Part shown: piece after piece, positions 1-13,901 of the stretch
Layout: each line of letters opens with the position of its first letter
Position numbering within the stretch: the first letter of the stretch is position 1
Origin: Tsukamurella asaccharolytica
GTDB lineage: Bacteria; Actinomycetota; Actinomycetes; Mycobacteriales; Mycobacteriaceae
Length of the DNA stretch: 34,297 nucleotides
Assembly (NCBI RefSeq): GCF_007858435.1
Contig: NZ_VIGW01000020.1
Coordinates: 1-34,297, forward strand
Direction of reading: 5' to 3'
The notes under the pieces: generated by a model
What the model saw: the letters and a program-made list of their open reading frames with translations, nothing else
Database searches by the model: none
What the model was told of the DNA's origin: nothing
Program-made: the position numbers and the translations under genes

Positions 1-1093
1 CGCCGACACGCCCGTCGTGCGGGACGACGGTGCCGCCCACGCGGGCGGCGAGGCGCTCCGCGCGGCGGCGCAGGTCCTCGGGGTCGGCGTGCAGGTAGGC
101 GAGGACGGGCGCCTCGGGTCCGCCGACGGTGGCCTCCAGCGCGGCGAGCACGAGCTTGTCGGCGCGGACGGCCCGCGCGAGGGGGTGTTTCGCGAGCCGG
201 GAGACGAGTTCCGCGCGGCCGAGCAGGATCCCGGCCTGGGGACCGCCGAGGAGCTTGTCGCCGCTCGCGGTCACCACGTCGGCGCCCGCCGCGAGGGCGG
301 AGGCGGCGTCGGGCTCGCCGGGCAGGGCCGGGTCGGCGGCGAGGAGCCCGCTGCCGAGGTCCATCACCAGCGGGACGTCGCCGCACACCGTGCGCAGCTC
401 GGCGAGGGGCACGTCGGCCGTGAAGCCCTCGACGCGGAAGTTGCTGGGGTGCACCTTGAGTACGCACCCGGTCTCCGGCCCGATCGCCTCCGCGTAGTCC
501 CGCGCGTGGGTGCGGTTCGTGGTGCCGACCTCGCGCAGGCGGGCGCCCGTGGAGGCGATGAGGTCCGGCAGCCGGAAGCCCGCGCCGATCTCGATCAGCT
601 CGCCCCGGCTGATGACCACCTCGCGGCCCGCGGCGAGCGCGGTGGTGGCGAGGACGAGGGCCGCGGCGCCGTTGTTGACCACGAGTGCTTCCTCCGCGGC
701 GGGGCACGCGGCGAGCAGTGCCGCGCGGGCGGCGACGCCGCGCTTGCTCCGCGCGCCGGTGCCCAGGTCGAGCTCGACGTCGGTGTATCCGGCGGCGTCG
801 ACAAGGGCCGCGACCGCCGCGCCCGACAGCGGAGCCCGGCCGAGGTTGGTGTGCACCACGACGCCGGTGGCGTTGAGCACCGGCCGCAGCGAGGCGGGCG
901 ACGCGCCCGCCAGCTGACGCTCGACGGAGCCCGCGACCTCCTCCGGCGCGAGCTCGCCGCGGCGCGCCGCCTCCTGCGCGGCGACGACGGCGGCGCGGAC
1001 CCTACGCTCGCCGAGCCGATCCGCGGCGGCGACCATCGCGGGCGCGGCGAGGAGGTGGTCGGTGCGGGGAATCCGACTGCGGGGGTCCGTCAT
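1..1093 (-). CDS. selA: L-seryl-tRNA(Sec) selenium transferase, C-terminus cut by window edge
   Basis: This PLP enzyme converts Ser-tRNA(Sec) to Sec-tRNA(Sec) in the cytoplasm, using selenophosphate from SelD. Seen: 364 codons run from an ATG at 1093 to the window edge without a stop. The conserved stretch LNATGVVVHTNLGRAPLS lies at about residues 73-90, and SGDKLLGGPQAG at about 277-288 holds the probable PLP lysine, Lys280. SelA proteins are usually 430-470 residues, so roughly 70-100 residues are missing to the left. The start is supported by an AGGAGG-type ribosome binding site about 6 nt upstream. The selenocysteine tRNA gene lies 48 nt upstream on the same strand, so the two are probably co-transcribed. 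SelB, which often follows selA, would be outside the window. The family call is secure; only the missing C-terminus limits it. Confidence 0.97.
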   Translation of the reverse strand, partial: MTDPRSRIPRTDHLLAAPAMVAAADRLGERRVRAAVVAAQEAARRGELAPEEVAGSVERQLAGASPASLRPVLNATGVVVHTNLGRAPLSGAAVAALVDAAGYTDVELDLGTGARSKRGVAARAALLAACPAAEEALVVNNGAAALVLATTALAAGREVVISRGELIEIGAGFRLPDLIASTGARLREVGTTNRTHARDYAEAIGPETGCVLKVHPSNFRVEGFTADVPLAELRTVCGDVPLVMDLGSGLLAADPALPGEPDAASALAAGADVVTASGDKLLGGPQAGILLGRAELVSRLAKHPLARAVRADKLVLAALEATVGGPEAPVLAYLHADPEDLRRRAERLAARVGGTVVPHDGRVG

Positions 1094-1141
1094 CCGCCCT
1101 CCTCCGGGGGTCTCGCCGTGGTCCGCCGCGCCGGCGGAGTG

Positions 1142-1237
1142 TGGCGGAGGTGGACGGGAATCGAACCCGCCAGGCCGAGATACTCGACCTCACCGGTTTT
1201 GAAGACCGGGGGGCCCACCAGGAACCCGGACACCTCC
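1142..1237 (-). tRNA. selC: Selenocysteine tRNA (anticodon UCA)
   Basis: This tRNA decodes UGA as selenocysteine. On the minus strand the 96-nt gene has an acceptor GGAGGUG pairing with CACCUCC, a discriminator G, and an encoded CCA at 1144-1142. The anticodon arm is CCGGU-CUUCAAA-ACCGG, with anticodon UCA at 1202-1200. The variable arm has an 8-bp stem (AGGUCGAG/CUCGGCCU) closed by a UAU loop, and the T arm is GCGGG-UUCGAUU-CCCGU. The long variable arm, UCA anticodon, extended length and neighbouring selA and selD all point to tRNA-Sec rather than a suppressor tRNA or tRNA-Ser. Confidence 0.97.
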
Positions 1238-1244
1238 GTCGACC

Positions 1245-1250
1245 AACATA
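1245..1250 (-). promoter_or_regulatory. -10 box (TATGTT) for selC-selA
   Basis: TATGTT on the minus strand sits 7 nt before the mature 5' G of tRNA-Sec at 1237, so transcription may start at or next to the mature tRNA end. No good -35 hexamer is visible. Inferred from spacing only. Confidence 0.5.
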
Positions 1251-1287
1251 GACCTCCGTCCCGGGCCTCGGGCCGGACCGGTCGGGA

Positions 1288-1293
1288 TAGCGT
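1288..1293 (+). promoter_or_regulatory. -10 box (TAGCGT) for leaderless selD
   Basis: TAGCGT is followed by 6 nt and then the selD ATG at 1300, and no Shine-Dalgarno sequence is placed to serve this start. This is the mycobacterial leaderless arrangement. The selC and selD promoters face away from each other within the 62-bp gap. Confidence 0.55.
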
Positions 1294-1299
1294 GGGAGC

Positions 1300-2289
1300 A
1301 TGACCGCAGACCTCGCCCGGCTCACGTCCTTCGCGCACGGCGGCGGCTGCGCCTGCAAGATCCCGCCGGGCGAGCTGGAGGAGGCCGTGCGGGGCCTGCA
1401 GGGGCAGATCGCGCCGGACGTGCTCGTCGGGCTGGACGACGGGGACGACGCCGCGGCGGTCCGGCTCTCGGACGACCTGGCCGTGCTCTCCACCGCGGAC
1501 TTCTTCACGCCGGTGGTCGACAGCGCCTACGACTGGGGGCGCATCGCCGCGGCCAACGCCCTCTCGGACGTCTACGCGATGGGCGGGCGGCCGGTGATGG
1601 CGATCAACCTCGTGGGCTGGCCTCGCGAGCAGCTGCCGATGGAACTCATGACCGAGGTGCTGCGCGGCGGTGCGGCCGTTGCGCAGGAGGCCGGGTGCCC
1701 GGTGATCGGCGGGCACAGCATCGACGATCCCGAGCCCAAGTACGGCATGGCGGTGACCGGCGTCGCGCACCCGGACCGGCTGCTGCGCAACGACTCCGCC
1801 GCCGTCGGTCTGCCCCTCACTCTGACCAAGCCGATCGGCGTGGGCCTGCTCAACAACCGGCACAAGCGCACCGGCGAGGTCTTCGAGGCCGCGATCACGA
1901 CCATGACGGCGCTCAACCGCGACGCCGCGGCCGCGGCCCTCGCGGCGGGCGCCCGCGCGGCCACCGACGTCACCGGGTTCGGCCTGCTCGGGCACCTGTA
2001 CAAGATGTGCCGGGCGTCGGGCGTCGCGGCGGAGATCGACGCCGCGGCGGTGCCGCTGGTCGACGGCGCGCGCGAGGCCCTGCGGGACGGCTTCGTCTCG
2101 GGCGGCACGCGCCGGAACCTCGACTGGGTGGCGCCGCACCTGGACGCCGACGGCGCCGCAGAGGACGACCTGCTGCTTCTCGCCGACGCGCAGACCTCCG
2201 GCGGGCTGCTGATCGTGGGCGAGGTGCCGGGCTACCCGGTTGTCGGCCGGACCGTCGCCGGGCCGGCGGGCCGCATGGTCATCCGGTGA
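1300..2289 (+). CDS. selD: Selenide, water dikinase (selenophosphate synthetase)
   Basis: This enzyme makes selenophosphate, the selenium donor for SelA, from selenide and ATP. It has 329 residues. Seen: the N-terminal active-site loop HGGGCACK at residues 13-20, with Cys17 and Lys20 at the positions known to be essential in E. coli SelD; an Asp-rich ATP/Mg region (LDDGDDAAAV, about 45-54); and DVTGFGLLGHL further in, typical of the AIR-synthase-like fold. The residue-17 position, which is selenocysteine in some organisms, is an ordinary TGC cysteine here. The gene is divergent from selC-selA. Its last 11 bases overlap, on the opposite strand, the end of the NrfD gene of the formate dehydrogenase operon, so the Sec machinery and its client are back to back. 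The ATG at 1300 looks leaderless. Confidence 0.97.
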   Translation: MTADLARLTSFAHGGGCACKIPPGELEEAVRGLQGQIAPDVLVGLDDGDDAAAVRLSDDLAVLSTADFFTPVVDSAYDWGRIAAANALSDVYAMGGRPVMAINLVGWPREQLPMELMTEVLRGGAAVAQEAGCPVIGGHSIDDPEPKYGMAVTGVAHPDRLLRNDSAAVGLPLTLTKPIGVGLLNNRHKRTGEVFEAAITTMTALNRDAAAAALAAGARAATDVTGFGLLGHLYKMCRASGVAAEIDAAAVPLVDGAREALRDGFVSGGTRRNLDWVAPHLDADGAAEDDLLLLADAQTSGGLLIVGEVPGYPVVGRTVAGPAGRMVIR

Positions 2290-3367
2290 TCGAGTCGCCC
2301 GTGTTCCCGGCTGCGCGGCGCGCGGCGAGGCGCCGCTTCTGGGGCTCGATCGTGTAGCGCGGATCCTTCGCAGATTCGAGGCCGGCCTCGAAGACGCCGA
2401 ACCGCGTGCACGCCGAGGCCGCGACGAGCGCCCCGCCGGACAGGGCGGCGAGGCCCCGTCGGACCCGGCCCCGGCGACCTCCCGTGAGCAGTGCGCCCAC
2501 GCCCCCGGCGATGGCGAGCCGCTCGGCCCAGCGCATGAGCTTCCCCGGCGTGCCGTGGTGCAGGGGCTCGGCGGCCACGGGGTCCATGCGGGCCTCCATG
2601 ATCCGGGTCGCGGCGACGTCGCCGATCACGCCGAGCACCGCAAGGTTCCGGGCCGGCGCCGCCTCCGCGGCCGGCGTGGTGACCAACGCCAGGCCGCCGG
2701 CCGCAAGGCTCGCGGAGCTGACGAAGACGAACGGCAGGTCCCGGTAGGCGGCGTTCCACGTGGGCATCGCCGTATCCGCGAGCAGGACCGCGGTGTACGC
2801 CGCCAGCGGCGCGGCGACGACAGCCGCACCGAGCCCGGCGGGCGCCTCCCCGAGTCGCAGCACCGTCCGCAGCGGGCCGAGCGGGAGCCGCTCGCCGAGG
2901 AGACGGTCGACCTCCACCGCCGCGGCGACGCCGATCATGCCGCTGTAGCCGGAGAGGATCCAGGAGCCGACGCTCATGGGCGAGGTCACCTTGAACGTGC
3001 GCATCATGTGCAGGAAGCGTTCCGGGCGGCCGAGGTCCGCGACCAGTGCGAGCGCGCCGACGCCCGCGGCGCCCAGGCCGGCGAGGCGGGCGTTGCGCCG
3101 CAGCGCGGGATACCCGGCGAGCTGCGCCCCCGCGGCGAGCAGGCCGGATCCGCCCGCGATACCGCCGAGGACGAGGTACGCGCCGACGGGCGCCTCCCAC
3201 GGCGGCGGCTTCACGATCGGGTGGCCGTAGTAGCTGTCGACGTGCTCGATCACGGCCTCGGGCACCACGACGTCGTCGGGCCGGCGCCGCTTCGGCGCGC
3301 CGTCGCCGCGCGTGCCGCGGCGCTCGGGCCGGGGCGGTCGGAACTGGTCGAACTCGGAGCTGGTCAC
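2279..3367 (-). CDS. Formate dehydrogenase membrane anchor, NrfD-like
   Basis: Probable integral membrane subunit that anchors the formate dehydrogenase and passes electrons to quinone (inferred from the NrfD/PsrC family). It has 362 residues. About the first 60 are polar and basic. They are followed by a series of hydrophobic segments (about 62-82, 95-112, 131-150 and further pairs toward the C-terminus), with the family-like PTWNAAYRDLPFVFVSSA stretch in the middle. It is not the cytochrome b556 type of anchor (FdnI/FdoI). The start is the GTG at 3367, which overlaps the beta-subunit stop as GTGA, so the two are translationally coupled. The C-terminal end overlaps selD by 11 bases in a convergent arrangement. 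A GC-rich tail of about 40 basic residues follows the last hydrophobic stretch. Confidence 0.85.
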   Translation of the reverse strand: MTSSEFDQFRPPRPERRGTRGDGAPKRRRPDDVVVPEAVIEHVDSYYGHPIVKPPPWEAPVGAYLVLGGIAGGSGLLAAGAQLAGYPALRRNARLAGLGAAGVGALALVADLGRPERFLHMMRTFKVTSPMSVGSWILSGYSGMIGVAAAVEVDRLLGERLPLGPLRTVLRLGEAPAGLGAAVVAAPLAAYTAVLLADTAMPTWNAAYRDLPFVFVSSASLAAGGLALVTTPAAEAAPARNLAVLGVIGDVAATRIMEARMDPVAAEPLHHGTPGKLMRWAERLAIAGGVGALLTGGRRGRVRRGLAALSGGALVAASACTRFGVFEAGLESAKDPRYTIEPQKRRLAARRAAGNTGDSITG

Positions 3368-4386
3368 CGGCGGCCCTTCTTCCGCGCCGAGAGGAACGAG
3401 ACCGCGGCCGCGGCGATCATGCCCGCGGCGGCGGTGCCGGCGCGCTTGTACATGGCCATGAGGTCGGCGGTGCACACCCTCGGGTCGGGCGGCAGCCCGT
3501 AGACCTCGGGCTCGTCGAGCAGCAGGAACACCGAGCCGGTGCCGCCCACGCCGTCGTCGTCGTTGGCGCCGTAGAGCCGCGCCTCGGTCATGCCCTGGGC
3601 GTGCAGCTGCGCGACGCGCTCGCGGGCCGTCGCCACCATCTCCTCGCGCTCGCCGAACTTGATCGACGTGGTGGGACAGGTCTTGGCGCAGGCCGGCGTC
3701 TCGTCGTCGCGGAGCCGGTCGTAGCAGAGGGTGCACTTCTGGGCGATGCCGCGGTTGTCGACCGGGGGCTGCTCGCCCTTGCGGTGGCCTTCGCGCACCG
3801 TCGGGGCGACGGTGCCGTCGCTACGCCGCTCGACCACGCCGAAAGGGCAGCCGGCGACGCAGGTGCCGCAGCCGTTGCAGATGTCGTTCTGCACCACGAC
3901 GGTGCCGAATTCGGTGCGCATCATGGCGCCCGTCGGGCACACGTCGAGACAGCCCGCGTGCGTGCAGTGCTTGCACACGTCGGAGGACATGAGCCAACGG
4001 AACTCCGGGGTGTCCGGCGGCGTGACGTCGGCCTCGCCCCAGGCCGGCATCTCCTCGCTCGCCGGGGCGGCGCCGCGGATCGCGGGCATGCCGAGACCGA
4101 CGAGGGCGCGGCCGGACTCGCGGGCCCGCTCGATGCGCTCGCGGTCCTGTTCGATGAAGGCCACATGCCGCCACGTGCTGGCGCCGAGCGCGACGGTGTT
4201 GTCGTAGGACATGCCCGTGAGCTCGAGGTCCCCGTCGCGCGGGTTGCGGTTCCACTCCTTGCACGCCACCTCGCACGCCTTGCAGCCGATGCAGATGGAC
4301 GTGTCCGTGAAGAAGCCGCGCCGCGCCTCGTGCACGTGCCAGTGCGCGTCGGCACTCGGGTCGGTGGGGCCGGTCAGCTGTCCCAT
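3364..4386 (-). CDS. Formate dehydrogenase beta subunit, four [4Fe-4S] clusters
   Basis: Electron-transfer subunit linking the catalytic alpha subunit to the membrane anchor. It has 340 residues and sixteen cysteines in four ferredoxin-type sets: 32/35/38/42, 138/141/146/150, 170/173/176/180 and 218/221/233/237. This is the FdnH/FdoH layout. A hydrophobic helix at about 316-332, followed by a basic tail (SARKKGRR), resembles the single C-terminal anchor helix of FdnH. The ATG at 4386 overlaps the alpha-subunit stop by 13 bases, and the stop overlaps the NrfD GTG, so all three genes form one tightly coupled operon. There is no signal peptide. fdoH or fdnH would be the closest E. coli name, but the different membrane anchor makes me withhold a symbol. 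Confidence 0.93.
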   Translation of the reverse strand: MGQLTGPTDPSADAHWHVHEARRGFFTDTSICIGCKACEVACKEWNRNPRDGDLELTGMSYDNTVALGASTWRHVAFIEQDRERIERARESGRALVGLGMPAIRGAAPASEEMPAWGEADVTPPDTPEFRWLMSSDVCKHCTHAGCLDVCPTGAMMRTEFGTVVVQNDICNGCGTCVAGCPFGVVERRSDGTVAPTVREGHRKGEQPPVDNRGIAQKCTLCYDRLRDDETPACAKTCPTTSIKFGEREEMVATARERVAQLHAQGMTEARLYGANDDDGVGGTGSVFLLLDEPEVYGLPPDPRVCTADLMAMYKRAGTAAAGMIAAAAVSFLSARKKGRR

Positions 4387-7300
4387 CGGGCCTCCCTCGG
4401 CGGCGTGAGCCGCACGTTGTCCGTCGACGTGGTGACGCCCGCCCGGTCGCGGTAGCTCTGCACCAGTTCCTCCAGCGCCGCGCCGCGCGGCCGCCGGCCC
4501 GCGATGACGGTGCAGGAACCCACCTTCGACTCCTGGATCTGCGTGTTCGGGTCGAGCGTGACCCCGATGAGGTCGTTGGCGGCGTCGCCCGTGACCACGG
4601 CGTCGCTGCCGACGCCCCAGTGGTAGGGCAGGCCGACCTGGTGCACGGTGCGCCCGCCGATCGTCAACGGCCGCATCCGCTCGGTGACCAGCACGCGGCA
4701 CTCGATCGCGGCGCGCGGCGAGATGATCGTGGCCCAGCCCTCGTTCTCGAGCCCGCACTCCGCGGCGAGCCCCGGGGAGACCTCGCAGAACATCTCCGGC
4801 TGCAGCTCCGCCAGGTACGGCGACCAGCGGCTCATGCCGCCGGCGGTGTGGTGCTCGGTGAGCCGGTAGGTGGTGAAGACGTACGGGTAGACGTCCGCGC
4901 CCGGATCACCCGCGCTGGGCGCGTCGAGGTTGTCCTCGCGCGGGAACATCACCCGCGCAGGCGCCTGCTGCTGCGGGTAGATCGCATTGCGCACCGGCGA
5001 CTCCTGCGCCTCGTAGTGGGTCGGCAGCGGACCGTCGACGAGGCCCGTCGGCGCGAAGAGCCAGCCCTTGCCGTCGGACTGCATGATGAACGGGTCGTCG
5101 CCGGCGAGGGCGCCGACCCCCGTCGCCCCGGGTTCGGGGACGGTGCCGGGGGCGAGCGTGGCCGGGAAGTCGGGGACGTCGGGCCCGGCCCACCGGCCCG
5201 CGGCCTCGTCCCACCACAGGTACTTCTTGCGCTCGCTCCACGGGCGCCCCTGCGGGTCCGCCGAGGCGCGGTTGTAGAGGATCCGCCGGTCGGCGGGCCA
5301 AACCCAGCCCCATTCGGACTGCGTGATGCCGCCACCGCCCTGCGGGACGCGGCGCGCGGAGTGATTGGCACCGTCGGCGTAGACGCCCGTGTAGATCCAG
5401 CAGCCCGCGATCGTCGAGCCGTCCGCCGTCAACTGCGTGTACGAAGTGAGATTCTTTCCCGCGTCGGGCCCGGAGACGAAGCGGCCGTTGATCTCCGAGA
5501 GCACCGCCTCGGGATCGGGGTTGCCGTGCGCGTCGGGCGGGTAGTCCCAGGTGAGATCCAGCAGCGGGCGGTCGCGCTCATCGGTCGAACCGGCGAGCCG
5601 CTGCCGGATCCGGAGGCCGAGGTCGTAGAAGAAGTCGAGCTCGCTCTGGGCCTGACCCGGCGGCTGCACGGCCTGGTGGCGCCACTGCAGCATCCGCTGG
5701 GTCTGCGTGAACGAGCCGGCCTTCTCGACGTGCGTGGCGGCCGGCATGAAGAAGACCTCGGTGCCGATGTCCTCGGTGCGCAGCTCGCCCGAGGCGATCT
5801 CGGGGCCGTCCTTCCACCACGTCGCCGACTCGATCATGTTGAGGTCGCGCACCACGAGCCACTTGAGCTTCGCCATACCCATGCGCTGCTGTCGCCCGTT
5901 CGCGGATCCGACCGCGGGGTTCTGGCCGAGCACGAAGTACCCGTCGACCTTCCCGTCCAGCATGGCGACGGCGGTCTGGTAGGTGCCCGCCGGTCCGTCG
6001 AGCTTCGGCAGGTAGTCGTAGGCGAAGTCGTTCTCCGCGGTCGCGGCCTCGCCGAACCAGGCCTTGAGCAAGCTGATCATGTACGTGTCGGCGTACTGCC
6101 AGTACCCCTTGCCGGTCTCCGGGCGGACCGACGCGATGTAGTCGGCGAGGGAGTCGTGCTTGCCCACCGAGGGCATCGGCAGGTAGCCGGGCAGCAGATT
6201 GAACAGCGTGGGGATGTCGGTCGAGCCCTGGATGCTGGCGTGCCCGCGCAAGGCCATGATGCCGCTGCCCGGCCGCCCGACGTTGCCCAGCAGCAACTGA
6301 AGGATGGCCGCGGTGCGGATGAACTGCGCGCCCATCGTGTGCTGCGTCCACCCGGTGGCGTAGCCGAAGCACGTCGTGCGCTCGCGACCGGAATTGCTCG
6401 TGATCGAGTCCGCCAGGTAGGTGAACTCGGCCGGCGAGATGCCGCACATGTCGGCAACGACCTCCGGGGTGTAGCGCGCGTAGTGGCGGCGCAGCACCTG
6501 GAAGACGGTCCGCGGGTCCTGCAGCGTCTCGTCGCGCCCGTCGGCGTACCGCCACGTCGACTGGTCGTACTTGCCGGTCTCCGGGTCGAACCCCGAGAAC
6601 AGTCCGTCGAGGTCCTCCGTGTCGCGGTAGTCCTCGCCGACCATCTCCGCCGCGTTGGTGTACGCCACGACGTAGTCGTGGAAGTACGCGTCGGTGGCGA
6701 GCACGTGGTTGATGAGCCCACCGAGCAGCACGATGTCCGAGCCCGCGCGGATCGGCACGTGCCGGTCCGCCACGGCGGAGGTCCGCGTGAACCGCGGGTC
6801 CACGTGGATCACCCGCGCCCCGCGGGCCTTCGCTTCAGCGACCCACTGGAACCCGACGGGGTGCGCCTCCGCCATGTTGCCACCCATGAGCACGATGCAA
6901 TCCGCGTTGGCCATGTCCTGTAGGGACTGGGTGGCGCCGCCGCGCCCGAACGAGGCTCCCAGACCGGGAACCGTGGCGGAGTGTCATATGCGGGCCTGGT
7001 TCTCGATCTGGATGGCGCCCGCGGCAGTGAACAGCTTCTTGATGAGGTAGTTCTCCTCATTGTCGAGCGTGGCGCCGCCGAGCGAGGCGATGCCCATGGT
7101 GCGGCGCAGCGGCCGCCCGTGCTCGTCGTAGTCCTGCCAGCCGTGCCGCCGAGCCTCGATGAACCGGTCGGCGATCATGTCGATCGCGGTGTCCCGGTCG
7201 AGGTCCTGCCACTCCGTGGCGTAGGGCGCGCGGTAGCGGATCTTCGTCTGCCGCAGCGGGTTGTTCACCAGCTGCTCGCTGGACGAGCCCTTGGGGCACA

Positions 7301-7550
7301 GGCGGCCGCGCGAGATGGGCGAATCCGGGTCGCCCTCGATCTGGATGACCTTCTCGTCCTTGACGTAGACCTTCTGGCCGCAGCCGACGGCGCAGAACGG
7401 GCAGACGCTCTGCACCACGCGGTCGGCGGTCTTCGTGCGCGGCTCGAGCGCACGGGTACGCGCGGACTCGACGGCCGGGCCGCGGCCGAAGACGTCGCCG
7501 GAACGGAGCTGCCGCAGTACCGGCCATTCGAGGGGGCTGAACCTCGTCAT
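4374..7550 (-). CDS. Formate dehydrogenase alpha subunit, selenocysteine-containing (UGA recoded at codon 189)
   Basis: Catalytic molybdopterin (bis-MGD) subunit oxidising formate to CO2. It is read as 1058 residues through an in-frame TGA at 6986-6984. Residues before the TGA end NQARI and those after begin HSATVPGLG, the motif that surrounds the metal-ligating Sec or Cys in FdnG/FdoG-type enzymes; this Sec is residue 189. An N-terminal [4Fe-4S] site is formed by Cys50, Cys53, Cys57 and Cys85. Then follow the large MGD-binding region (VLMGGNMAEAHPVGFQW; GYATGWTQHTMGAQ) and a C-terminal molydopterin dinucleotide-binding domain. The N-terminus has no twin-arginine signal, unlike E. coli FdnG, so a cytoplasmic-facing enzyme is inferred. 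The ATG at 7550 was chosen because a TAGGCT -10 box ends 7 nt before it; an in-frame ATG at 7616 would add 22 Arg/Pro-rich residues. Reading the TGA as a stop would split the gene in two. Confidence 0.96.
6954..6986 (-). promoter_or_regulatory. Selenocysteine UGA and SECIS hairpin
   Basis: On the minus strand the UGA (6986-6984) is followed by 11 nt and then a 7-bp stem, GGUUCCC (6972-6966) with GGGAGCC (6960-6954), closed by a GGUCU loop (6965-6961). One pair is U-G. The loop starts 18 nt after the UGA. The E. coli fdhF SECIS, from memory, has the same GGUCU loop sequence and the same 18-nt distance. SelB should bind this loop. Confidence 0.93.
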
Positions 7551-7557
7551 GCCCCTG

Positions 7558-7563
7558 AGCCTA
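7558..7563 (-). promoter_or_regulatory. -10 box (TAGGCT) for the formate dehydrogenase operon
   Basis: TAGGCT lies 7 nt upstream of the chosen alpha-subunit ATG at 7550, consistent with a leaderless transcript. No strong -35 element is visible. Confidence 0.5.
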
Positions 7564-7711
7564 GTCCCGCGCCGCGGGCGCCGCTCCGGAATCCGCGGTC
7601 GCCGCCGTGGATCCACGGGTGAGGCGCGCAGGAGTGCGTATTCGGCTTCCTGCCGACGTGGTCGGACGGTACGTATCGTGGTGCGTACACGCTCATCCGA
7701 GGAGGACCTGC

Positions 7712-7897
7712 ATGCAAACCGGTCGCGCTCTGCTGCTGGACATGGACGGCACGCTGGTGGATTCGCTCGACGGTGCCCCGCACGCGCTGGTGACGTCCGC
7801 CGACTGCATCGCCTTCGAGGACTCCGAGTCCGGCATCGCCGCGGCGAAGACCGCCGGAATGCGCGTCGACGGCGAGGGCATCCACCTGACCTTCTGA
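7712..7897 (+). pseudogene. Internally deleted HAD-superfamily phosphatase remnant (61 codons, open frame)
   Basis: The 61-residue product starts like a complete HAD sugar-phosphatase, with motif I LLLDMDGTLVDS at residues 7-18. It then jumps to a motif-II-like PHALVTSAD and straight on to the motif-IV region CIAFEDSESGIAAAKTAGM. Normal members are over 200 residues. The cap domain and the stretch carrying the motif-III lysine are absent, yet the reading frame is intact across both joins. A strong ribosome binding site (GAGGAGG, 7699-7705) precedes the ATG, and TATCGT about 35 nt upstream could be its -10 box. It cannot fold as a normal HAD enzyme. I call it a decayed gene, but expression as a mini-protein is possible. 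Confidence 0.75.
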
Positions 7898-7954
7898 CCC
7901 GGCACCGTCGGATCCAGATGAGACGGTCGGCCGCCCCGGCGACATAGAGGGGGT

Positions 7955-8533
7955 GTGACGTCCACGATGAGAACCGACGAATCCGCGGACCGGACCCTCC
8001 TCGCCCGCGCCGCGGGCGGCGACGGCTCGGCGTTCGCGGCGATCCACGACCGCCACGTGCGCCCCGTCTACTGGCAGGCGTACACCGTCCTGCGCGACGC
8101 CGACGCCGCGCAGGAAGTCGCGCAGGACACCTTCCTCACGCTCTGGCGCCGCATCGCCTCCGTGCGGATCGTGGACGAGTCGGTGCTCCCGTGGCTGCTC
8201 ACCACCGCGCGGTACACCGCGCTGAACGCGGGCAGGCGCCTCTCGGCGGTCCGCGACAGAGCGGCGCCGCTCGACGACGCCGAACCGCCGGGCGCCGCAC
8301 CGTCGCCCGAGGACGAGGTGCTCGCCGCAGAGATCCGCGCGCTCATCGCCGCCGCGGTGAGTTCCCTGTCGCCCACCGACCAGCGTCTCTACCGCCTGTG
8401 CGTGGAAGACGACCAGACCTACGAGCGGGCCGCGGCCGAGGTGGGCGTCACCCACGCCGCCGTGCGCAACCGCGTCTCCAGGCTGCGCAGCCGCCTGCGC
8501 GCCGACCTGAGCACCCTGAGGGAGCAGTCATGA
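7955..8533 (+). CDS. ECF-type RNA polymerase sigma factor
   Basis: A group-4 sigma factor of 192 residues that would redirect RNA polymerase to a small regulon. Sigma region 2 covers about residues 25-95 (AFAAIHDRHVRPVYWQAYTV, then AQEVAQDTFLTLWRR). Region 4, with its helix-turn-helix, covers about 136-182 (LSPTDQRLYRLC... AAAEVGVTHAAVRNRVSRL). The GTG at 7955 is close to a purine-rich GAGGGGG stretch; an ATG at 7967 in the same frame is an alternative start. Its stop overlaps the ATG of the DUF4349 gene as ATGA, so the two are co-translated, the usual layout for a sigma factor and its membrane regulator. The target promoter is unknown. Confidence 0.9.
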   Translation: MTSTMRTDESADRTLLARAAGGDGSAFAAIHDRHVRPVYWQAYTVLRDADAAQEVAQDTFLTLWRRIASVRIVDESVLPWLLTTARYTALNAGRRLSAVRDRAAPLDDAEPPGAAPSPEDEVLAAEIRALIAAAVSSLSPTDQRLYRLCVEDDQTYERAAAEVGVTHAAVRNRVSRLRSRLRADLSTLREQS

Positions 8534-9525
8534 CCACCCGGATCACCCCCGACGACATCCTCACCGACGACCGGCTCGCCGCGATGCGGTCCGCGGTGCT
8601 GACCGAGGTGAACGACGACCTCCGGACCCGTCGGCGTAGCCGCCGGCGTCGGACGATGGGCATCGCCGCGGCCGCCGCCGTCGCGGTCGTCGCCGTGGGC
8701 GGAGGCGTCGTCGCGACCCAGCTCCAAGGCGACAAGACCGAGTCCGCGTACTCCGCCCCCGCTCCGCAGACAGGGGCGCGCGGGGCCGCGGAGTCCGCGC
8801 CCACAGGCGGCCGGGCCGCCGTGGCCCCCGCCCCGAAGGCCGCGCCGGACGCGCCGTCGACCCCGGTGAACGCGCCGGCGAACCGGCAGGTGATCACGAC
8901 CGGCACCGTCGACGTGACGAACGCGGACCCGGCCTCGGCGGCCAAGGAGCTGGCCGCGACCGCGGAGCGCCTCGGCGGCCGCGTCGACGCGCGCACCGAA
9001 TCCGGCGGGGAGAAGGCCCGGGCGACGCTGACGCTCCGAGTGCCGAACGACAAGGTGAACGAGCTCGTGGAGAAGGTCGGCGGCCTCGGCGAGGTCGGCT
9101 CCGTCCGGCTCGAGCACGAGGACGTGACCGGCACCGTCGTGGACCTCGAGGCGCGGATCCGCGCGACGCAGGTCTCCGTCGACCGGCTGACGGCGATCCT
9201 CGCGAGGGCCGAGACCACCGACCAGGTGATCGCGGCGGAGTCCGCGCTCACGTCGCGCCAGCAGGAGCTCGAATCCCTGCAGTCGCGGCGCGCGGCGATC
9301 GGGGACCAGGTCGCACTCTCGACGGTGACGGTGACGGTCGAGAAGCCGACGGTGACCGTCGACCGGTCCGGGTTCACGGGCGGGCTGCGGGACGGCTGGG
9401 ACGCGCTGCTCGGTGCCGGGCGGTGGTTGCTGGTGATCGCGGGCGCGGTGCTGCCGTGGGCCGCGGTGCTGCTGGTGCTCTACGGGGTCTACCGGGCGGT
9501 GCGCCGCTTCCGGCCCCGCCCGTGA
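8530..9525 (+). CDS. DUF4349 membrane protein, possible anti-sigma partner
   Basis: A 331-residue protein. A charged cytoplasmic N-terminus of about 42 residues, very rich in arginine near the membrane, leads to a transmembrane helix at about 43-63. After an Ala/Pro-rich linker (about 70-115) comes the DUF4349 domain (about 118-285), with helical, coiled-coil-like segments around LEARIRATQVSVDRL and ALTSRQQELESLQSRR. A second hydrophobic helix lies at about 297-320, followed by a basic tail. The bulk of the protein should lie outside the membrane between the two helices. It is translationally coupled to the upstream ECF sigma factor, so it may sense an envelope signal and hold the sigma factor. 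However, no zinc-binding anti-sigma motif (HxxxCxxC) is present, so that role is inferred from context only. Confidence 0.82.
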   Translation: MTTRITPDDILTDDRLAAMRSAVLTEVNDDLRTRRRSRRRRTMGIAAAAAVAVVAVGGGVVATQLQGDKTESAYSAPAPQTGARGAAESAPTGGRAAVAPAPKAAPDAPSTPVNAPANRQVITTGTVDVTNADPASAAKELAATAERLGGRVDARTESGGEKARATLTLRVPNDKVNELVEKVGGLGEVGSVRLEHEDVTGTVVDLEARIRATQVSVDRLTAILARAETTDQVIAAESALTSRQQELESLQSRRAAIGDQVALSTVTVTVEKPTVTVDRSGFTGGLRDGWDALLGAGRWLLVIAGAVLPWAAVLLVLYGVYRAVRRFRPRP

Positions 9526-9545
9526 CCGCCTGGAACGCGGGCCTC

Positions 9546-9572
9546 AGCGCGGCGCCGCAACGGTGCCGCGCT
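9546..9572. terminator. Bidirectional hairpin between convergent genes
   Basis: A 12-bp inverted repeat (9546-9557 with 9561-9572, one G-U wobble) with a CAA loop lies in the 70-bp gap between the converging DUF4349 and flavoprotein genes. It has no T-tract, as is common for actinobacterial terminators. Confidence 0.7.
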
Positions 9573-9595
9573 CGCCGGCGGGGGCAACACGAGTG

Positions 9596-10789
9596 TTAGA
9601 CCTGCGCGAGCGGGACGCCGGGATCGGCGAGACGCGCGGCGTCGACCACCCGGCGGGACGTGATCAGCGCACGCACATCGTCGCCCACGTCCCACACGTT
9701 CACGTTCATACCGGCCAGAACGCGCCCCTCCGCCAGCCAGAAGGCGACGAACTCGAGGGCGTCCAGGTCGCCGCGGATCACCACGTGGTCGTACCCGGTC
9801 GACAGGCCCAGGTATTCCATGCCGAGCTGGTATTGGTCGGTGAAGAAGTACGGGAGACGGTCGTAGACCTCGGACCCGCCGAGGATGTTGGCGGCGGCGA
9901 CGCGCGGCTGGTTGAGGGCATTGGCCCAGTGCTCGACGCGCACGCGCCGTCCGACCGTCGGGTTCTCGGCGGCGGCGATGTCACCGACGGCGAAGACGTG
10001 CGGGTCGGAGGTGCGCAGCCCCGCGTCGACGGCCACGCCGCCCTCCGCGGTCTCCAGGCCGGCCGCCTCGGCCAGCTCGATGTTCGGCATCGCCCCGATC
10101 CCGACGAGCACGGCGTCGGTCTCGATCGTGGTCCCGTCCTCGAGGACCAGTCCCTTCCCGCCGGGCTCGACGGCCTGCACGCCGACGCCGGTACGCAGGT
10201 CGACGCCGTGCGAGCGGTGCAGGTCGGCGAAGACCGTGCCGAGCTCGGGGCCGAGGGCGCCGAGGAGCGGCTGTTCGGCGGGTTCGATGACGGTGACCCC
10301 CAGGCCGGCCTCGCGGGCCGCGGCGGCCGCCTCGAGCCCGATCCAGCCGCCGCCGACGACGCCCAGGCGACCGCCCTTGTCGAAGGCGGCTCGCAGGGCG
10401 TCGCTGTCGTCGAGGGTGCGCAAGTAGTGCACCCCGTCGGCCCCCGGCAGCGGCCGCGCGCGAGACCCCGTGGCCAGCACCAGGTCGTCATAGGCCAGCG
10501 ACTCCCCCGTATCCAGGCCGACGGTGCGCGCCTCCCGGTCGAGGGACGTCGCGCGGACGCCGGTCCGCAGGGTGACGTCGTGGTCGGCGTACCAGGCGGC
10601 GTCGAAGGTGAAGACGCTGTCGCGCTCGGCCTTGCCCTGCAAGTAGTCCTTGGACAGCGGGGGTCGCTCGTACGGCGGATGGGATTCGGCGCCGATCAGC
10701 GTGATCGAGCCGTCGTGGCCCAGATCCCGTAGCGCCTCGGCCGCTTTCGCGGCCGCCAGTCCTGCTCCGACGATGACGATCGCACCCAT
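9596..10789 (-). CDS. FAD/NAD(P)-dependent ferredoxin reductase-like oxidoreductase
   Basis: A 397-residue flavoprotein of the BphA4/ThcD-type ferredoxin reductase family, expected to move electrons from NAD(P)H to a ferredoxin or rubredoxin partner. Seen: an N-terminal FAD Rossmann motif (VGAGLAAAKAA, 7-17), the flavin-site ERPPLSK (41-47), a second dinucleotide motif GGGWIGLEAA (146-155), and the second FAD contact VFAVGDIAA (265-273). A C-terminal reductase domain starts at about 320. The ATG at 10789 directly precedes the first beta strand and is 7 nt after a TACGGT -10 box; an upstream in-frame ATG would add 21 unrelated residues. No ferredoxin or P450 gene is adjacent, so the electron acceptor is unknown. 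Confidence 0.92.
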   Translation of the reverse strand: MGAIVIVGAGLAAAKAAEALRDLGHDGSITLIGAESHPPYERPPLSKDYLQGKAERDSVFTFDAAWYADHDVTLRTGVRATSLDREARTVGLDTGESLAYDDLVLATGSRARPLPGADGVHYLRTLDDSDALRAAFDKGGRLGVVGGGWIGLEAAAAAREAGLGVTVIEPAEQPLLGALGPELGTVFADLHRSHGVDLRTGVGVQAVEPGGKGLVLEDGTTIETDAVLVGIGAMPNIELAEAAGLETAEGGVAVDAGLRTSDPHVFAVGDIAAAENPTVGRRVRVEHWANALNQPRVAAANILGGSEVYDRLPYFFTDQYQLGMEYLGLSTGYDHVVIRGDLDALEFVAFWLAEGRVLAGMNVNVWDVGDDVRALITSRRVVDAARLADPGVPLAQV

Positions 10790-10796
10790 GCCCTCG

Positions 10797-10802
10797 ACCG
10801 TA
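10797..10802 (-). promoter_or_regulatory. -10 box (TACGGT), leaderless flavoprotein gene
   Basis: TACGGT is followed by 7 nt and the ATG at 10789, and no Shine-Dalgarno fits this start. Inferred leaderless promoter. Confidence 0.5.
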
Positions 10803-10868
10803 GACCCGTCCGTCGACGAGGGGAACCCCTCGCATCGACGTATCGGATGCACGATTCGTCCGGTTCGC

Positions 10869-10874
10869 TACGCT
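10869..10874 (+). promoter_or_regulatory. -10 box (TACGCT), leaderless small membrane protein gene
   Basis: TACGCT is followed by CGGATC (6 nt) and the ATG at 10881. Confidence 0.5.
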
Positions 10875-10880
10875 CGGATC

Positions 10881-11234
10881 ATGGAAATACTACGCAACGT
10901 AATAGTTCTGGTGCACATCGTGGGTTTCGCCGTCACGTTCGGCAGCTGGGTCGCCTCGGCGGCAGCGGGCCGGTTCCGGTTCGAACGGGTCATGGACTAC
11001 GGACTGCTGGTCTCGCTCGTCACCGGGCTTGCGCTCGCCGCACCGTGGCCTGCGGGGATCGAGCTGAACTACCCGAAGATCGGGATCAAACTGGTCATCC
11101 TGCTCGCGCTCGGCGGCCTGCTCGGGATGGGGAGCGCGCGGCAGAAGCGAACCGGCGAGGCCGTCCCGCGCGGGATGTTCTACGCCGCGGGCGTGCTGTC
11201 GCTGATCGCCGCGGGGCTCGCCGTCATCTGGTGA
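10881..11234 (+). CDS. Small four-helix membrane protein, function unknown
   Basis: A 117-residue, almost wholly hydrophobic protein with four predicted transmembrane helices at about 4-25, 38-54, 66-84 and 98-116. Short positively charged loops separate them (GRFRFERVMDY, SARQKRTGEAVPR). It resembles the small actinobacterial integral membrane proteins annotated only as 'hypothetical membrane protein', and I recognise no functional family. The start is the ATG 6 nt after a TACGCT -10 box. Divergent from the flavoprotein gene, with 91 bp between the two starts, so the two may share regulation. Its last few codons overlap the 3' end of the MerR remnant on the other strand. Confidence 0.8.
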   Translation: MEILRNVIVLVHIVGFAVTFGSWVASAAAGRFRFERVMDYGLLVSLVTGLALAAPWPAGIELNYPKIGIKLVILLALGGLLGMGSARQKRTGEAVPRGMFYAAGVLSLIAAGLAVIW

Positions 11235-11434
11235 CGCCGATGTCCACCAGCTCTGCCGTCTCCGTCGCCGATAGCTCGGCCTCGATGCGCCAGACGCGTC
11301 GGAGACAGTACGTCCTCCTTCGGTGAACACCCGATAGCCGCCGCCCCGGTGCGACGCCCCCTGTTCTCGTAGTGCCGGACCTGCCGCGTCGCCCGAGATG
11401 CGTCAATCAACAGTTGACAACCCGCCTTCGTCAA
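11224..11434 (-). pseudogene. MerR-family regulator remnant, broken by frameshifts
   Basis: No single frame is coding, but pieces of a MerR protein appear in order on the minus strand in different frames. They are ATRQVRHYENRG (the DNA-binding helix and RHYE motif), then GGGYRVFTE (the wing of the winged helix) in a second frame, then EDV back in the first frame, then CLRRVWRIEAELSATETAEL in the third frame, ending at a TGA at 11226-11224. At least three frame changes are needed within about 110 bp. Only the N-terminal third of a MerR protein is represented. This is a decayed regulator gene that was once divergent from the Clp_N gene. Confidence 0.72.
11402..11418. promoter_or_regulatory. Palindromic operator 1 (GTCAA-N7-TTGAC)
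   Basis: A 17-bp inverted repeat with 5-bp arms. Its right arm is part of the TTGACA -35 hexamer (11414-11419) of the Clp_N gene, so a bound protein would block the promoter. Confidence 0.65.
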
Positions 11435-11442
11435 CTCATGAT
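11414..11442 (+). promoter_or_regulatory. Promoter of the Clp_N/HTH gene
   Basis: A consensus -35 TTGACA (11414-11419), a 17-bp spacer, and a -10 CATGAT (11437-11442), followed by 6 nt and the ATG at 11449. This is the best-formed promoter in the window and predicts a leaderless transcript. Confidence 0.65.
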
Positions 11443-11446
11443 TGAC
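11430..11446. promoter_or_regulatory. Palindromic operator 2 (GTCAA-N7-TTGAC)
   Basis: A second 17-bp copy of the same palindrome, 28 bp from the first. It covers the -10 box and nearly reaches the transcription start of the Clp_N/HTH gene. Confidence 0.65.
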
Positions 11447-11448
11447 AC

Positions 11449-12186
11449 ATGTCCTCGAACAGCCCCGTCAGCCTCGACGCCCTCATCCGCACCGTGCACG
11501 CGCTCCACCCGGACGGCGACGCACTCGACCACCTGGGCGACGCCGTCGCGGTCGCGGCGCACCTCGGCGAGACCGCCGACCACCTCGTCGGGCACTTCGT
11601 CGACCAGGCGCGGCGCAGCGGCGCCACCTGGACCTCGATCGGCGAGTCCATGGGGATGACGAAGCAGGCGGCGCAGCAGCGCTCGGCGCCGCCGAGCATC
11701 GACCCGTCGGCGCTGATCGACGCGACCGGCTCGCCGTACTCGCGGTTCACGCCGCGGGCGCGGAGTGTCGTGGTGGCGGCGCAGGACGAGGCGCGCGAGG
11801 TGGGGAGCCCGGTGATCGACACCGACCACATGCTGCTGGGTCTGTTCCGCGAGCCCGAGGGAATCGCTGCCCGCCTACTCCTCGGTCGGGGAATCACTGA
11901 GGAGGCGGTCACCGAAGCCGTCCTGCACCGGCAGAGTTCGACGCCGGACTCCCAGGAGAGCCCGGAGCTCATTCCCTTCTCACCGGCGGCGAAGAAGGTC
12001 GTGGAGATGGTGCTGCGCGAGGCGCTCCGACTGGGCCACAACTACGTCGGCACCGAGCACATCCTGCTCGGCATCCTGGCGGAGGGCACCGGCCCCGGCG
12101 CGGCCTTCCTGATCGAGCGCGACGTGGACCACGCGACGATCGACGCCGCGGTACGCGAGGTCCTTTCGGCGTACCAACCCGAGTGA
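11449..12186 (+). CDS. HTH protein with duplicated Clp_N (ClpC N-domain) repeats
   Basis: A 245-residue protein that joins a helix-turn-helix-like segment (about 57-79, ending GMTKQAAQQR) to two copies of the Clp_N repeat. The first repeat is at about 99-160 (FTPRARSVVVAAQDEA... TDHMLLGLF) and the second at about 176-240 (FSPAAKKVVEMVLREA... GTEHILLGIL). Each carries the family's (T/G)(D/T)(E/D)H-x-LLG signature. In ClpC/ClpA this double repeat binds adaptors and substrates, but here there is no ATPase domain. A plausible role, inferred, is a DNA-binding protein that shares ligands with ClpC, or a decoy or adaptor for the Clp protease. Two palindromes over its own promoter suggest autoregulation. 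The ATG lies 6 nt after a -10 box. Confidence 0.87.
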   Translation: MSSNSPVSLDALIRTVHALHPDGDALDHLGDAVAVAAHLGETADHLVGHFVDQARRSGATWTSIGESMGMTKQAAQQRSAPPSIDPSALIDATGSPYSRFTPRARSVVVAAQDEAREVGSPVIDTDHMLLGLFREPEGIAARLLLGRGITEEAVTEAVLHRQSSTPDSQESPELIPFSPAAKKVVEMVLREALRLGHNYVGTEHILLGILAEGTGPGAAFLIERDVDHATIDAAVREVLSAYQPE

Positions 12187-12198
12187 GGTGGCGCGCGG

Positions 12199-12204
12199 TA
12201 CCGT
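12199..12204 (+). promoter_or_regulatory. -10 box (TACCGT), leaderless secreted-protein gene
   Basis: TACCGT is followed by AAGCCC (6 nt) and the ATG at 12211. Confidence 0.5.
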
Positions 12205-12210
12205 AAGCCC

Positions 12211-12675
12211 ATGGCCTCCATCGCACGCCTCACGCCAGCCCTGATCCTCGCTCTCGTGTCCGCCGCGATCGCCGCGCCTGCGACGGCCGCGAGCTGCACT
12301 CCCGCGCGGCAGCTCGCCGCGGCGGACGCCTACCTCGCCGCCCTCAGCGATCGCACGAAGGCCGGCGCGGTACCGTTCGCGCCGAACGCCGTCCGGTTCG
12401 AGAACGGTCTTCAGACCGGGTTCTCCGGCGAGCAGTTGCGCCGGGACCTGGACCGCCACCTGCAGTACTCGGTCATGGACGCTCCACGGGTCACCGCACG
12501 GACGGTCGCCCCGGGCGGCGACCGCGACCTGCTCAACTACCGTTTCATCGTGCCCGTCCGGATCGCGGGGCAGCGCATCGTGGACGCCCCGACCGACGAG
12601 GACTTCCGGATTCCGCGGAGCACCTGCCTCATCACCCGCATCGACGCGCGAATCACGGTCGCGCCGCCGCGCTGA
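12211..12675 (+). CDS. Secreted protein of unknown function
   Basis: A 154-residue protein with a clear Sec signal peptide: Arg6, a hydrophobic core at about 8-22, and likely cleavage near ATA-A at about residue 27. The mature part has two cysteines (Cys29 and Cys139) that could form a disulphide. A helix followed by strands (AADAYLAALSDR... VRFENG... NYRFIVPVRI) resembles the NTF2/SnoaL-like cone fold in layout, but no catalytic residues can be identified and this is only a fold guess. There is no lipobox: Cys29 is preceded by AAS, not the L-A-G type. It follows the Clp_N gene by 24 nt but has its own -10 box. It ends 3 nt from the convergent mycothiol-type gene. Confidence 0.75.
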   Translation: MASIARLTPALILALVSAAIAAPATAASCTPARQLAAADAYLAALSDRTKAGAVPFAPNAVRFENGLQTGFSGEQLRRDLDRHLQYSVMDAPRVTARTVAPGGDRDLLNYRFIVPVRIAGQRIVDAPTDEDFRIPRSTCLITRIDARITVAPPR

Positions 12676-12678
12676 GCG

Positions 12679-13302
12679 TCACCCGACGCGGTCGGCAAGG
12701 GTGGGCAGGCCCTGCCCGCCTAGCTCCTCCAGGCCGACGGTGCGCCCGCTCACGGCGAGCAGCAGGGCGAGCAGCGGACCGGTGACCTCCGGGCCGTCGC
12801 CGAGCGTGACGTCCGCGTCGGTGGCGCGCAACCGCAGCCCCGCGACGTGCTCCTTCGCACCGCCCATGCCCTTCCCGGTACGGGCCTGCAGGCGCAGGGC
12901 CCGCTCCACCGCCTCCGTCGGGTACTCGCCGACGGCGCCCAGCGGACGCCGGATGTCCTCGCCGTGCACGACGGCTTCGACGAGCCGGGTATCGAGCGGA
13001 GCGGGCGGGCCCGAGGTGCGGTCGACGAGCGCGCGGAACCGGTCGAGCATCTGCGCCGCCGGGCCGAGCTCGCGGTCGACCCCGTTCTGGTTGTCACGGT
13101 CGAAGTCGAAACGAGCGAGGATCATTCCCTTGACGAAGCCCAGGCGCGTGGTATTCGCGGTGGAGATCTGATGGGCGACGACGTCGCGCACGCGCCACCC
13201 CGGGCAGAGGGACGGCGTGTCCCAGCGCGCATCGTCGACGCCCTCGAGGTAGGCGATCAGGGCGCGGCGCTCCGCGTGGACCAACTGCCAGGCATCGGAC
13301 AT
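12679..13302 (-). CDS. Maleylpyruvate isomerase-family, mycothiol-dependent (DinB-fold) protein
   Basis: A 207-residue member of the actinobacterial family described as mycothiol-dependent maleylpyruvate-isomerase-like (DinB four-helix fold). Seen: the opening helix with HAERRALIAYLEG, the family signature PSLCPGWRVRDVVAH at 30-44 with a probable metal-binding His44, and the second signature VVHGEDIRRPLG at 111-122 with His113. Members bind a divalent metal and are thought to use mycothiol; the actual substrate of this one is unknown. A ribosome binding site, AAGGAG, precedes the ATG at 13302. It probably has its own short leader, with a TACGGT -10 box about 20 nt upstream. The presence of the family supports an actinobacterial host that makes mycothiol. 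Confidence 0.85.
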   Translation of the reverse strand: MSDAWQLVHAERRALIAYLEGVDDARWDTPSLCPGWRVRDVVAHQISTANTTRLGFVKGMILARFDFDRDNQNGVDRELGPAAQMLDRFRALVDRTSGPPAPLDTRLVEAVVHGEDIRRPLGAVGEYPTEAVERALRLQARTGKGMGGAKEHVAGLRLRATDADVTLGDGPEVTGPLLALLLAVSGRTVGLEELGGQGLPTLADRVG

Positions 13303-13340
13303 GGCACTCCTTCGTCCCGCTCACCGTAACGCGGAACACC

Positions 13341-13901
13341 TCAGCGGCGGAGCTGGATCGAACTCCCCGCCGCGGCGGACCCTCGCAGCACGACCAGCGG
13401 CCCGGCGGCACCGTCGGGAGGACCGGCCTTGTCCTTGAGCGAGCTCCATCCCGAGTACTCCATGCCGGTCGCATCCACGCGCATCGTCGGCGGGAGTCGC
13501 AGCTTGAGCGTGCTCCACGAGATCTGCACCTCGATCTCGACACCGCCGTAGGGGAGGTCGGCGCTGCGGAAGTCGAGCTTCGCGGTTCCCATCGATCCCG
13601 TGATCCGCAGACGCGCGGGCACCGCCCACACACCTCTGCGGCGCACCGTCGTCCATTCCAGGTCGAGGGCCTCGACCGATCGGTCCGCAGCGTCCGGCAC
13701 CGACGGGAACAGCCTGTCGCGTATCGGAAGATCGTTCACGAGGCCCTGCAACTCACCACGATTGGCGGCGCTGTAAGCCGCATGCGTACGCTGGTCGAAC
13801 TCCTGGACGGTCAGGTACCCGGTGGCCATCGCCTCGCCGAGCAGCTCGACCGCCCGCTGTCGTTCGGGGTCACCCACCCGGATTCCATCGCTGTCCGCCA
13901 T
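13341..13901 (-). CDS. DUF1707 (SHOCT-like) domain protein
   Basis: A 186-residue protein. The N-terminal DUF1707 domain (about 7-59) has the typical opening IRVGDPERQRAVELLGEAMATGYLTV and continues with EFDQR and the conserved ELQGLVNDLP. The C-terminal part (about 85-186) is a beta-rich segment resembling the LiaF-like cell-wall stress domain often attached to DUF1707. There is no transmembrane helix, unlike many relatives. The ATG at 13901 lies 6 nt after a TAGGGT -10 box and there is no ribosome binding site. It sits downstream of, and in the same direction as, the ECF42 sigma gene with a 35-nt gap, but the -10 box suggests separate transcription. Function unknown; an envelope link is inferred from the LiaF-like part. 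Confidence 0.85.
   Translation of the reverse strand: MADSDGIRVGDPERQRAVELLGEAMATGYLTVQEFDQRTHAAYSAANRGELQGLVNDLPIRDRLFPSVPDAADRSVEALDLEWTTVRRRGVWAVPARLRITGSMGTAKLDFRSADLPYGGVEIEVQISWSTLKLRLPPTMRVDATGMEYSGWSSLKDKAGPPDGAAGPLVVLRGSAAAGSSIQLRR

Follow-up and report, generated by a model that had tools for sequence, protein, structure and literature searches.

Does a stop codon inside a gene end the protein there, or is it read as selenocysteine (Sec)? This question is raised by a stretch of 34,297 nucleotides (the window) from the Tsukamurella asaccharolytica contig NZ_VIGW01000020.1 (assembly GCF_007858435.1), where the minus-strand frame of fdhA, the gene for a formate dehydrogenase alpha subunit, runs from 7550 to 4377 over 1058 codons and is open but for one TGA, at codon 189. 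A preliminary description of the window had read this TGA as Sec, placed it at the metal-ligand position of the enzyme, and assigned to it a downstream hairpin resembling that of E. coli, a Sec insertion sequence (SECIS). Homologues, covariation, the alignment with the PDB chain 1h0h_A and the complete complement of Sec genes in the genome all bear this out: the product of fdhA is almost certainly the catalytic subunit of a formate dehydrogenase that is bound to the membrane, depends on molybdopterin and belongs to the actinobacterial family NF041513, with UGA 189 predicted to be read as Sec.

The fdhA product matches the NCBIfam profile NF041513 (formate_DH_Act, for actinobacterial alpha subunits; length 1067) at 1886.1 bits, above the cut-off of 1400, and thus belongs to this family. 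Residue 189 is aligned with the non-standard residue X in the motif QARI-X-HSATV of the formate dehydrogenase alpha subunit 1h0h_A; we take this X to be the Sec known from the Desulfovibrio gigas enzyme, which would make codon 189 the metal-ligand position. To see how the codon is kept among relatives, we collected 121 homologous loci; those of named genomes were the best 80 of 589 matches, the rest came from further relatives, and some genomes were reached twice. All but L040 and L041 could be read at codon 189, and in these 119 it was TGA in 110, TAG in 6 and TGC in 3; these counts are not frequencies, because the TAG and the TGC (cysteine, Cys) loci were chosen deliberately and the others are best matches. 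A second, phylum-wide set of 73 loci, 72 of them readable (not L244), had TGA at this position in 71 and TGT in one. In the six genomes with TAG, the tRNA scored as tRNA-Sec by Rfam (64.2-67.7 bits) has the anticodon CTA, and ARAGORN calls it tRNA-Pyl.

The hairpin past the TGA is as it had been described, with a 7-bp stem, a GGUCU loop and 18 nt from UGA to loop (Table 1). In the E. coli K-12 genome the spacing is likewise 18 nt, both in fdhF (loop GGUCU), the gene with which it had been equated, and in fdnG and fdoG (AGUCU). A 7-bp stem closing a loop of the form [AG]GT[CT]T occurs once on the two strands of the window, and has a TGA 18 nt ahead. The stem by itself is weak evidence in sequence this rich in GC: when the 17 codons were replaced at random by synonymous ones, 10.5% of 200,000 versions kept a 7-bp stem and 1.2% kept both stem and loop.

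Comparison among homologues is more telling. All seven pairs can form at 103 of the 116 Sec sites in the first set and six at the other 13; the three Cys homologues form only 3-4. On the 74 distinct rows of this alignment 97.9% of cells are paired, and none of 500 shuffles (mean 0.118) reached the covariation score of 0.171, while versions slid along the sequence gave at most 0.082. Both sides of a pair had changed in 13 cells, which again none of the 500 shuffles matched. Two coarser measures gave a weaker signal: 38 of 500 shuffles had at least as many pairs with changes on both sides (2), and 93 at least as many further pair types (6). The strongest pair, 18-30, is seen as UA, UG, CG and GU and links two synonymous third positions.

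Codon choice within the hairpin is skewed as well. V194 is encoded by GTT in 96 of 109 rows, a codon used for 189 of all 2458 Val codons, those included; P195 is CCC in 109 of 109, G196 is GGT in all 70 rows with Gly, and G198 is GGA in 83 of 109. For the four codons scored within 194-199, divergence averages 1.73 bits, versus 0.18 for 158 codons elsewhere in the gene. Taken together, the homologues, the covariation and the skewed codon choice support the hairpin as a probable SECIS, and it is this comparative evidence that decides the matter. Across the phylum-wide set, 60 of the 71 TGA sites retain 6-7 pairs, one retains 5 and ten retain 2-4. When folding starts 12 nt past the first base of the UGA, the hairpin of the window gene has a pairing probability of 0.998, and of 0.98 when it starts 15 nt before the UGA; in the four Cys homologues folded, the probability was 0.0.

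The genes needed for Sec insertion are present in the genome. A tRNA-Sec with anticodon TCA, selD and most of selA lie in the window, whose first base is also the first base of the contig (C12; the genome, of 4.12 Mb, is in 81 contigs). A complete selB, the gene whose absence from the genome would have refuted the reading according to the preliminary description, was found at the end of another contig (C3), with a SelB score of 286.9 bits against a cut-off of 242.25 and a C-terminal winged-helix domain (SelB-wing_3); adjoining it is a second SelA piece (95856-96125, 38.3 bits). The enzyme and this machinery also occur together elsewhere. In a tally of 151 genomes (that of the window and 150 relatives, counted by hand among the matches listed, which makes the numbers lower bounds), at least 64 have the Sec enzyme, with TGA in at least 58 and TAG in 6; three more have TGC, and one (G055) could not be read. 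A tRNA-Sec above 60 bits was found in 62 of these 64, the exceptions being G102 (82% complete) and Gordonia hirsuta (G070). Within the genus Tsukamurella, enzyme and tRNA-Sec are found in the identical 9 of 16 genomes.

Based on these families we propose the following mechanism. SelA and SelD would make Sec on tRNA-Sec, and SelB would carry the Sec-tRNA, with its C-terminal winged helix bound to the hairpin past the UGA, allowing the tRNA to compete against release factor at UGA 189. Sec 189 would then be a metal ligand, and the electrons from formate would travel by way of FdhB, the iron-sulphur subunit, to NrfD in the membrane and from there to the quinone pool. The identities and order of the genes, the Sec position, the conserved hairpin and the co-occurrence are computed results; Sec insertion, the metal, the electron acceptor and the membrane side are inferred by family analogy. 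This would give the genome one selenoprotein at least, and a way of oxidizing formate that depends on selenium. A search for further Sec sites with a SECIS model, in which 150 of 8388 first-look candidates were scored, gave none above 19.6 bits, while the fdhA site reached 80.9 bits; the model was built including the fdhA site itself, and a SECIS of another shape would escape it.

Several observations weigh against this reading of fdhA. A 54-nt fold of the hairpin region is no stabler than its shuffles (z 0.12), and we rejected fold stability as evidence for a SECIS, since GC-rich shuffles fold equally well. When 30 nt upstream are included, a competing fold wins in silico and the probability of the hairpin drops to 0.0 for the window gene; among 179 distinct actinobacterial Sec sites folded in this way, it is at least 0.5 at 80. 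Ten distant homologues (L270-L279, 43-50% identity) keep the UGA and form only 2-4 of the 7 pairs in the 7-bp register. The draft genome of Gordonia hirsuta has an fdhA with UGA, and no SelA, SelB, SelD or tRNA-Sec over the cut-offs. Either an assembly gap or a real loss may lie behind this; its fdhA contig (L170, 1-10000) ends in nrfD, and two other Gordonia contigs (L054, L056) end at or shortly after nrfD. Finally, FdhB has one C-terminal hydrophobic segment (residues 316-334) followed by RKKGRR, and the charges of this tail would favour an iron-sulphur domain facing outside, a poor fit with the missing twin-arginine (Tat) motif of the alpha subunit.

Could the TGA be something other than a Sec codon? 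A pseudogene mutation or a sequencing error would leave a truncated protein, and a lone stop in an open frame does resemble a nonsense mutation when seen in isolation. However, the same codon is TGA or TAG in nearly all homologues of the first set, the TAG genomes have a tRNA with the matching anticodon, and TGA prevails throughout the phylum, which makes truncation extremely improbable. Hardly more credible is that the UGA is suppressed in some other way, for example by a near-cognate tRNA such as that for Trp, with no Sec involved: the SECIS, the tRNA-Sec, SelA, SelB and SelD are all there, tRNA-Sec accompanies the enzyme in nearly every Sec-type genome, and codon 189 is at the active-site position.

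A subtler alternative is that Sec is inserted at the UGA only in the presence of selenium and that a short product results otherwise, in which case the site would also be a selenium-dependent switch. Actinomycetospora chiangmaiensis is described, in the accessible part of the study, as accumulating formate without selenite (PMC7176365). Such an effect, however, is expected of any Sec gene and is nothing special, and the window indicates no function for a 188-residue product; we therefore consider a switch unlikely. Sec insertion at UGA 189 of fdhA is the explanation that we prefer.

The fdhA site has a further peculiarity, in the codon just before the Sec codon. In the window this is ATA, a rare codon for Ile, and a similar skew is seen family-wide. 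For this comparison we used 183 distinct sites, with identical stretches removed, comprising the 179 Sec sites and four Cys sites. The codon before Sec is ATT in 108, ATA in 66, ATC in 3, ATG in 1 and TTA in 1 of the 179, whereas the other Ile codons of the same stretches are ATC in 1875 of 2122 cases (88%). The skew holds at the 48 sites with a G+C content at third codon positions (GC3) of at least 0.92, where the codon before Sec is ATA in 22, ATT in 22, ATC in 3 and ATG in 1, and the other Ile codons include 510 ATC and 6 ATA. Since a FastTree tree of 182 rows requires 21 changes of this codon (with 71 of its 177 inner branches weakly supported), it is not one inherited codon.

A second subfamily of formate dehydrogenases, in which 35 of 40 loci could be read (L346 and L376-L379 are without a clear motif) and 29 have a Sec site, shows a related pattern with other amino acids. 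Leu before Sec is encoded by TTA (7) or TTG (6), codons that make up 25 of 248 Leu codons elsewhere, and 4 of these 13 sites are in genes with GC3 below 0.65. Val before Sec is GTT in 3 of 3 cases and in 2 of 59 elsewhere, while Thr is ACC in 6 and ACT in 2, and Ala is GCC in 4 and GCT in 1. The ten readable actinobacterial Cys homologues have a common C- or G-ending codon at this position: GTC in 2, GTG in 1 and ATC in 1 of the main family, and GTC in 3, CTG in 2 and CTC in 1 of the second subfamily.

These patterns suggest that selection likely acts on the codon before Sec. We tentatively propose, at a confidence a little short of even, that in actinobacteria selection maintains this codon as an element of the recoding signal of formate dehydrogenases, with the uncommon AUA or AUU kept for Ile, UUA or UUG for Leu, and GUU for Val. 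Possibly the tRNA in the P site would thereby influence whether SelB or release factor prevails. A general rule that no C stands before the Sec codon was rejected: ACC makes up 6 of 8 Thr and GCC 4 of 5 Ala codons in the second subfamily, and in the Sec form of SelD from the same phylum the codon before Sec is GGC in 17, GGG in 12 and GGT in 11 of 40, near the Gly background (all 40 Sec-SelD and all 20 Cys-SelD loci compared were readable). Two other explanations of the skew were considered. Base pairing of the nucleotide before UGA was rejected, as its best partner in a scan from -60 to +90 nt paired at 65% of sites. An overlapping gene starting at that nucleotide is unsupported: in the 166 of 179 loci with a visible stop, the median length of its frame is 52 codons (50 in the window).

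The Sec-formate dehydrogenases of Proteobacteria have GTC before Sec in 12 of 12 cases (three E. coli genes and nine plasmid records), and there may be an upstream rule particular to each lineage besides the SECIS; since two of three proteobacterial Cys homologues have GTC too, this may also be plain codon preference. To our knowledge, bacterial SECIS searches look downstream of the UGA only. If the codon before UGA is indeed selected in a phylum-specific way, it would aid the prediction of Sec genes, and an effect of the P-site codon could be tested with reporters. The literature that we could reach, including the accessible parts of PMC4513850 and PMC8659212, yielded nothing on a skew of this codon; most subscription papers were outside its coverage.

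Table 1. Coordinates in the window of the Sec site and of the genes around it.
Feature	Position	Strand	Basis
Sec codon UGA, codon 189 of fdhA	6984..6986	minus	in-frame TGA; homologue alignment
SECIS hairpin GGUUCCC-GGUCU-GGGAGCC, 7 bp, 5-nt loop	6954..6972	minus	18 nt from UGA to loop
Codon before Sec, ATA (Ile), rare	6987..6989	minus	family-wide skew
fdhA, formate dehydrogenase alpha subunit, 1058 residues, Sec at 189	4374..7550	minus	stop TGA 4376-4374; NCBIfam NF041513
fdhB, iron-sulphur subunit, 340 residues	3364..4386	minus	Fer4 domains on residues 1-299; hydropathy
membrane anchor of NrfD type, 362 residues; its GTG start overlaps the fdhB stop	2279..3367	minus	Pfam NrfD 64.6 bits, cut-off 25.8
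selD, selenide water dikinase, Cys form (no internal stop)	1300..2289	plus	TIGR00476 394.9 bits, cut-off 125
tRNA-Sec, anticodon TCA	1142..1237	minus	ARAGORN 1142-1237; Rfam RF01852 75.5 bits (1146-1237), gathering score 47
selA, truncated by contig end	2..1093	minus	TIGR00474 386.3 bits, cut-off 267.9

The genes next to fdhA (Table 1) include the NrfD-type anchor that had been predicted, and the adjacency of genes for a molybdopterin subunit, a 4Fe-4S subunit and NrfD fits NrfD-anchored molybdoenzyme complexes; selD is convergent with nrfD. The lack of a Tat signal, also proposed earlier, holds beyond the window: a twin-arginine motif before the first iron-sulphur cysteine was found in none of the 80 named loci, while the E. 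coli controls fdnG and fdoG were positive. Its absence is thus a trait of the family. Elsewhere in the window, the terminal stretch of a long frame (26184-28715) matches the Pfam family 'Selenoprotein, putative' (PF04328), whose name is presumably historical; we take the family not to be one of selenoproteins.

The arrangement of fdhA with Sec genes recurs. In 46 of the 80 named loci selD is on the opposite strand, with selA and selB then following downstream of fdhA, as in the window; 16 have selB-selA and selD on the other side, 10 have part of one order only, and 8 show none of selA, selB and selD, several of them explained by a contig end. These counts agree with the view, given in the accessible part of one study, that the genes for Sec decoding travel as a cluster, selA-selB-selC, in company with fdhA (PMC1794560). 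The block fdhA-fdhB-nrfD-selD-tRNA-Sec-selA-selB behaves as one unit, patchy within the genus, and may have been transferred as such. A Sec-type enzyme with an NrfD anchor had been called uncommon among well-studied actinobacteria, a statement that does not hold for the phylum in general, where the enzyme is widespread: besides its frequency among the 151 genomes, a match at E <= 1e-100 was obtained in 85 of 296 genomes sampled across the phylum.

Sec genes and the enzyme do not always go together in the sampled genomes. Genome G095 (L168, L180, L190) has a Cys (TGC) formate dehydrogenase of this family, yet also selA, selD and tRNA-Sec; another selenoprotein therefore probably maintains the system there. 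Five genomes (G098, G100, G119, G121 and G130) have a tRNA-Sec above 60 bits and no Sec-type fdhA relative among the matches listed, and other selenoproteins are possible in these. In Tsukamurella sp. PLM1 (G015; L051 / L169; completeness 83%), selB and selA match as several separate pieces, which looks like sequencing error. A suspicion that SelB is missing from this genome was rejected, as SelB is present in pieces.

How does the window gene compare with known systems? Its nearest named relatives among the matches listed are the alpha subunits of Tsukamurella sp. PLM1 (97% over the best segment) and T. pseudospumae (94%). The fdnG of T. tyrosinosolvens NCTC13231 (NZ_LR134459.1) encodes an alpha subunit 97.2% identical over the full length, and shares with the window the Sec codon, the ATA before it and the SECIS. 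The record annotates it as a single 3165-nt coding sequence, with a 4Fe-4S gene, nrfD, selD, selA and selB next in line, the same order as here; the expectation that automatic annotation would yield two truncated genes is therefore not generally correct. Bases 1-13876 of the window align piecewise to this record at 78-93% identity. Beside fdnG, T. tyrosinosolvens has intact genes for an alpha-hydroxy acid oxidase and a HAD hydrolase, whereas window 7607-7897, next to fdhA, holds only remnants of the HAD hydrolase gene and no oxidase; we read this as a small deletion beside the operon. The T. tyrosinosolvens record (L199) is filed as 'plasmid 17' (239 kb, non-mobilizable). We doubt the plasmid location, as the record aligns with window 1-13876; a wrong label is the likely, though unproven, explanation.

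In E. coli, fdhF, fdnG and fdoG resemble the window gene in having UGA followed by CAC, a GGUCU or AGUCU loop and the same spacing. They differ in the codon before Sec, which is GTC in E. coli, ATA in the window and ATA or ATT in the family. E. coli fdnG and fdoG also have a Tat motif, which the alpha subunit of the window lacks. The gamma subunit of E. coli FdnGHI and FdoGHI is a cytochrome b, whereas the third gene in the window encodes an NrfD protein, which sets the complex apart from the FdnGHI/FdoGHI type. Mukai and co-workers reportedly worked on formate dehydrogenases with UAG-encoded Sec as early as 2016. Such enzymes, with a CUA tRNA-Sec, are described for Geodermatophilaceae in the accessible part of a later account (PMC5330540). 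The six TAG genomes found here, with enzyme, hairpin and CTA tRNA-Sec, match this type and might, at a guess, be Geodermatophilaceae themselves; the window differs in having TGA and a TCA anticodon.

Within the actinobacteria, the parts of the reports available to us describe tRNA-Sec(TCA) predicted in 103 mycobacteria (PMC9569102), and three Sec-formate dehydrogenases in A. chiangmaiensis (PMC7176365). One of the three, FDH1, has a Sec-containing alpha subunit of 1078 residues, encoded in one cluster with the beta and gamma subunits, SelA and SelB; it was of low abundance in the proteome, and formate removal needed selenite (PMC7176365). As far as that published description goes, and by description rather than by sequence, FDH1 resembles the window system in its Sec alpha subunit and in the SelA and SelB of its cluster. 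Since the family NF041513 already exists, the T. tyrosinosolvens gene is annotated whole, and both selenium-dependent and TAG-encoded actinobacterial enzymes have been published, the window gene is the correct reading of an already known kind rather than a new one.

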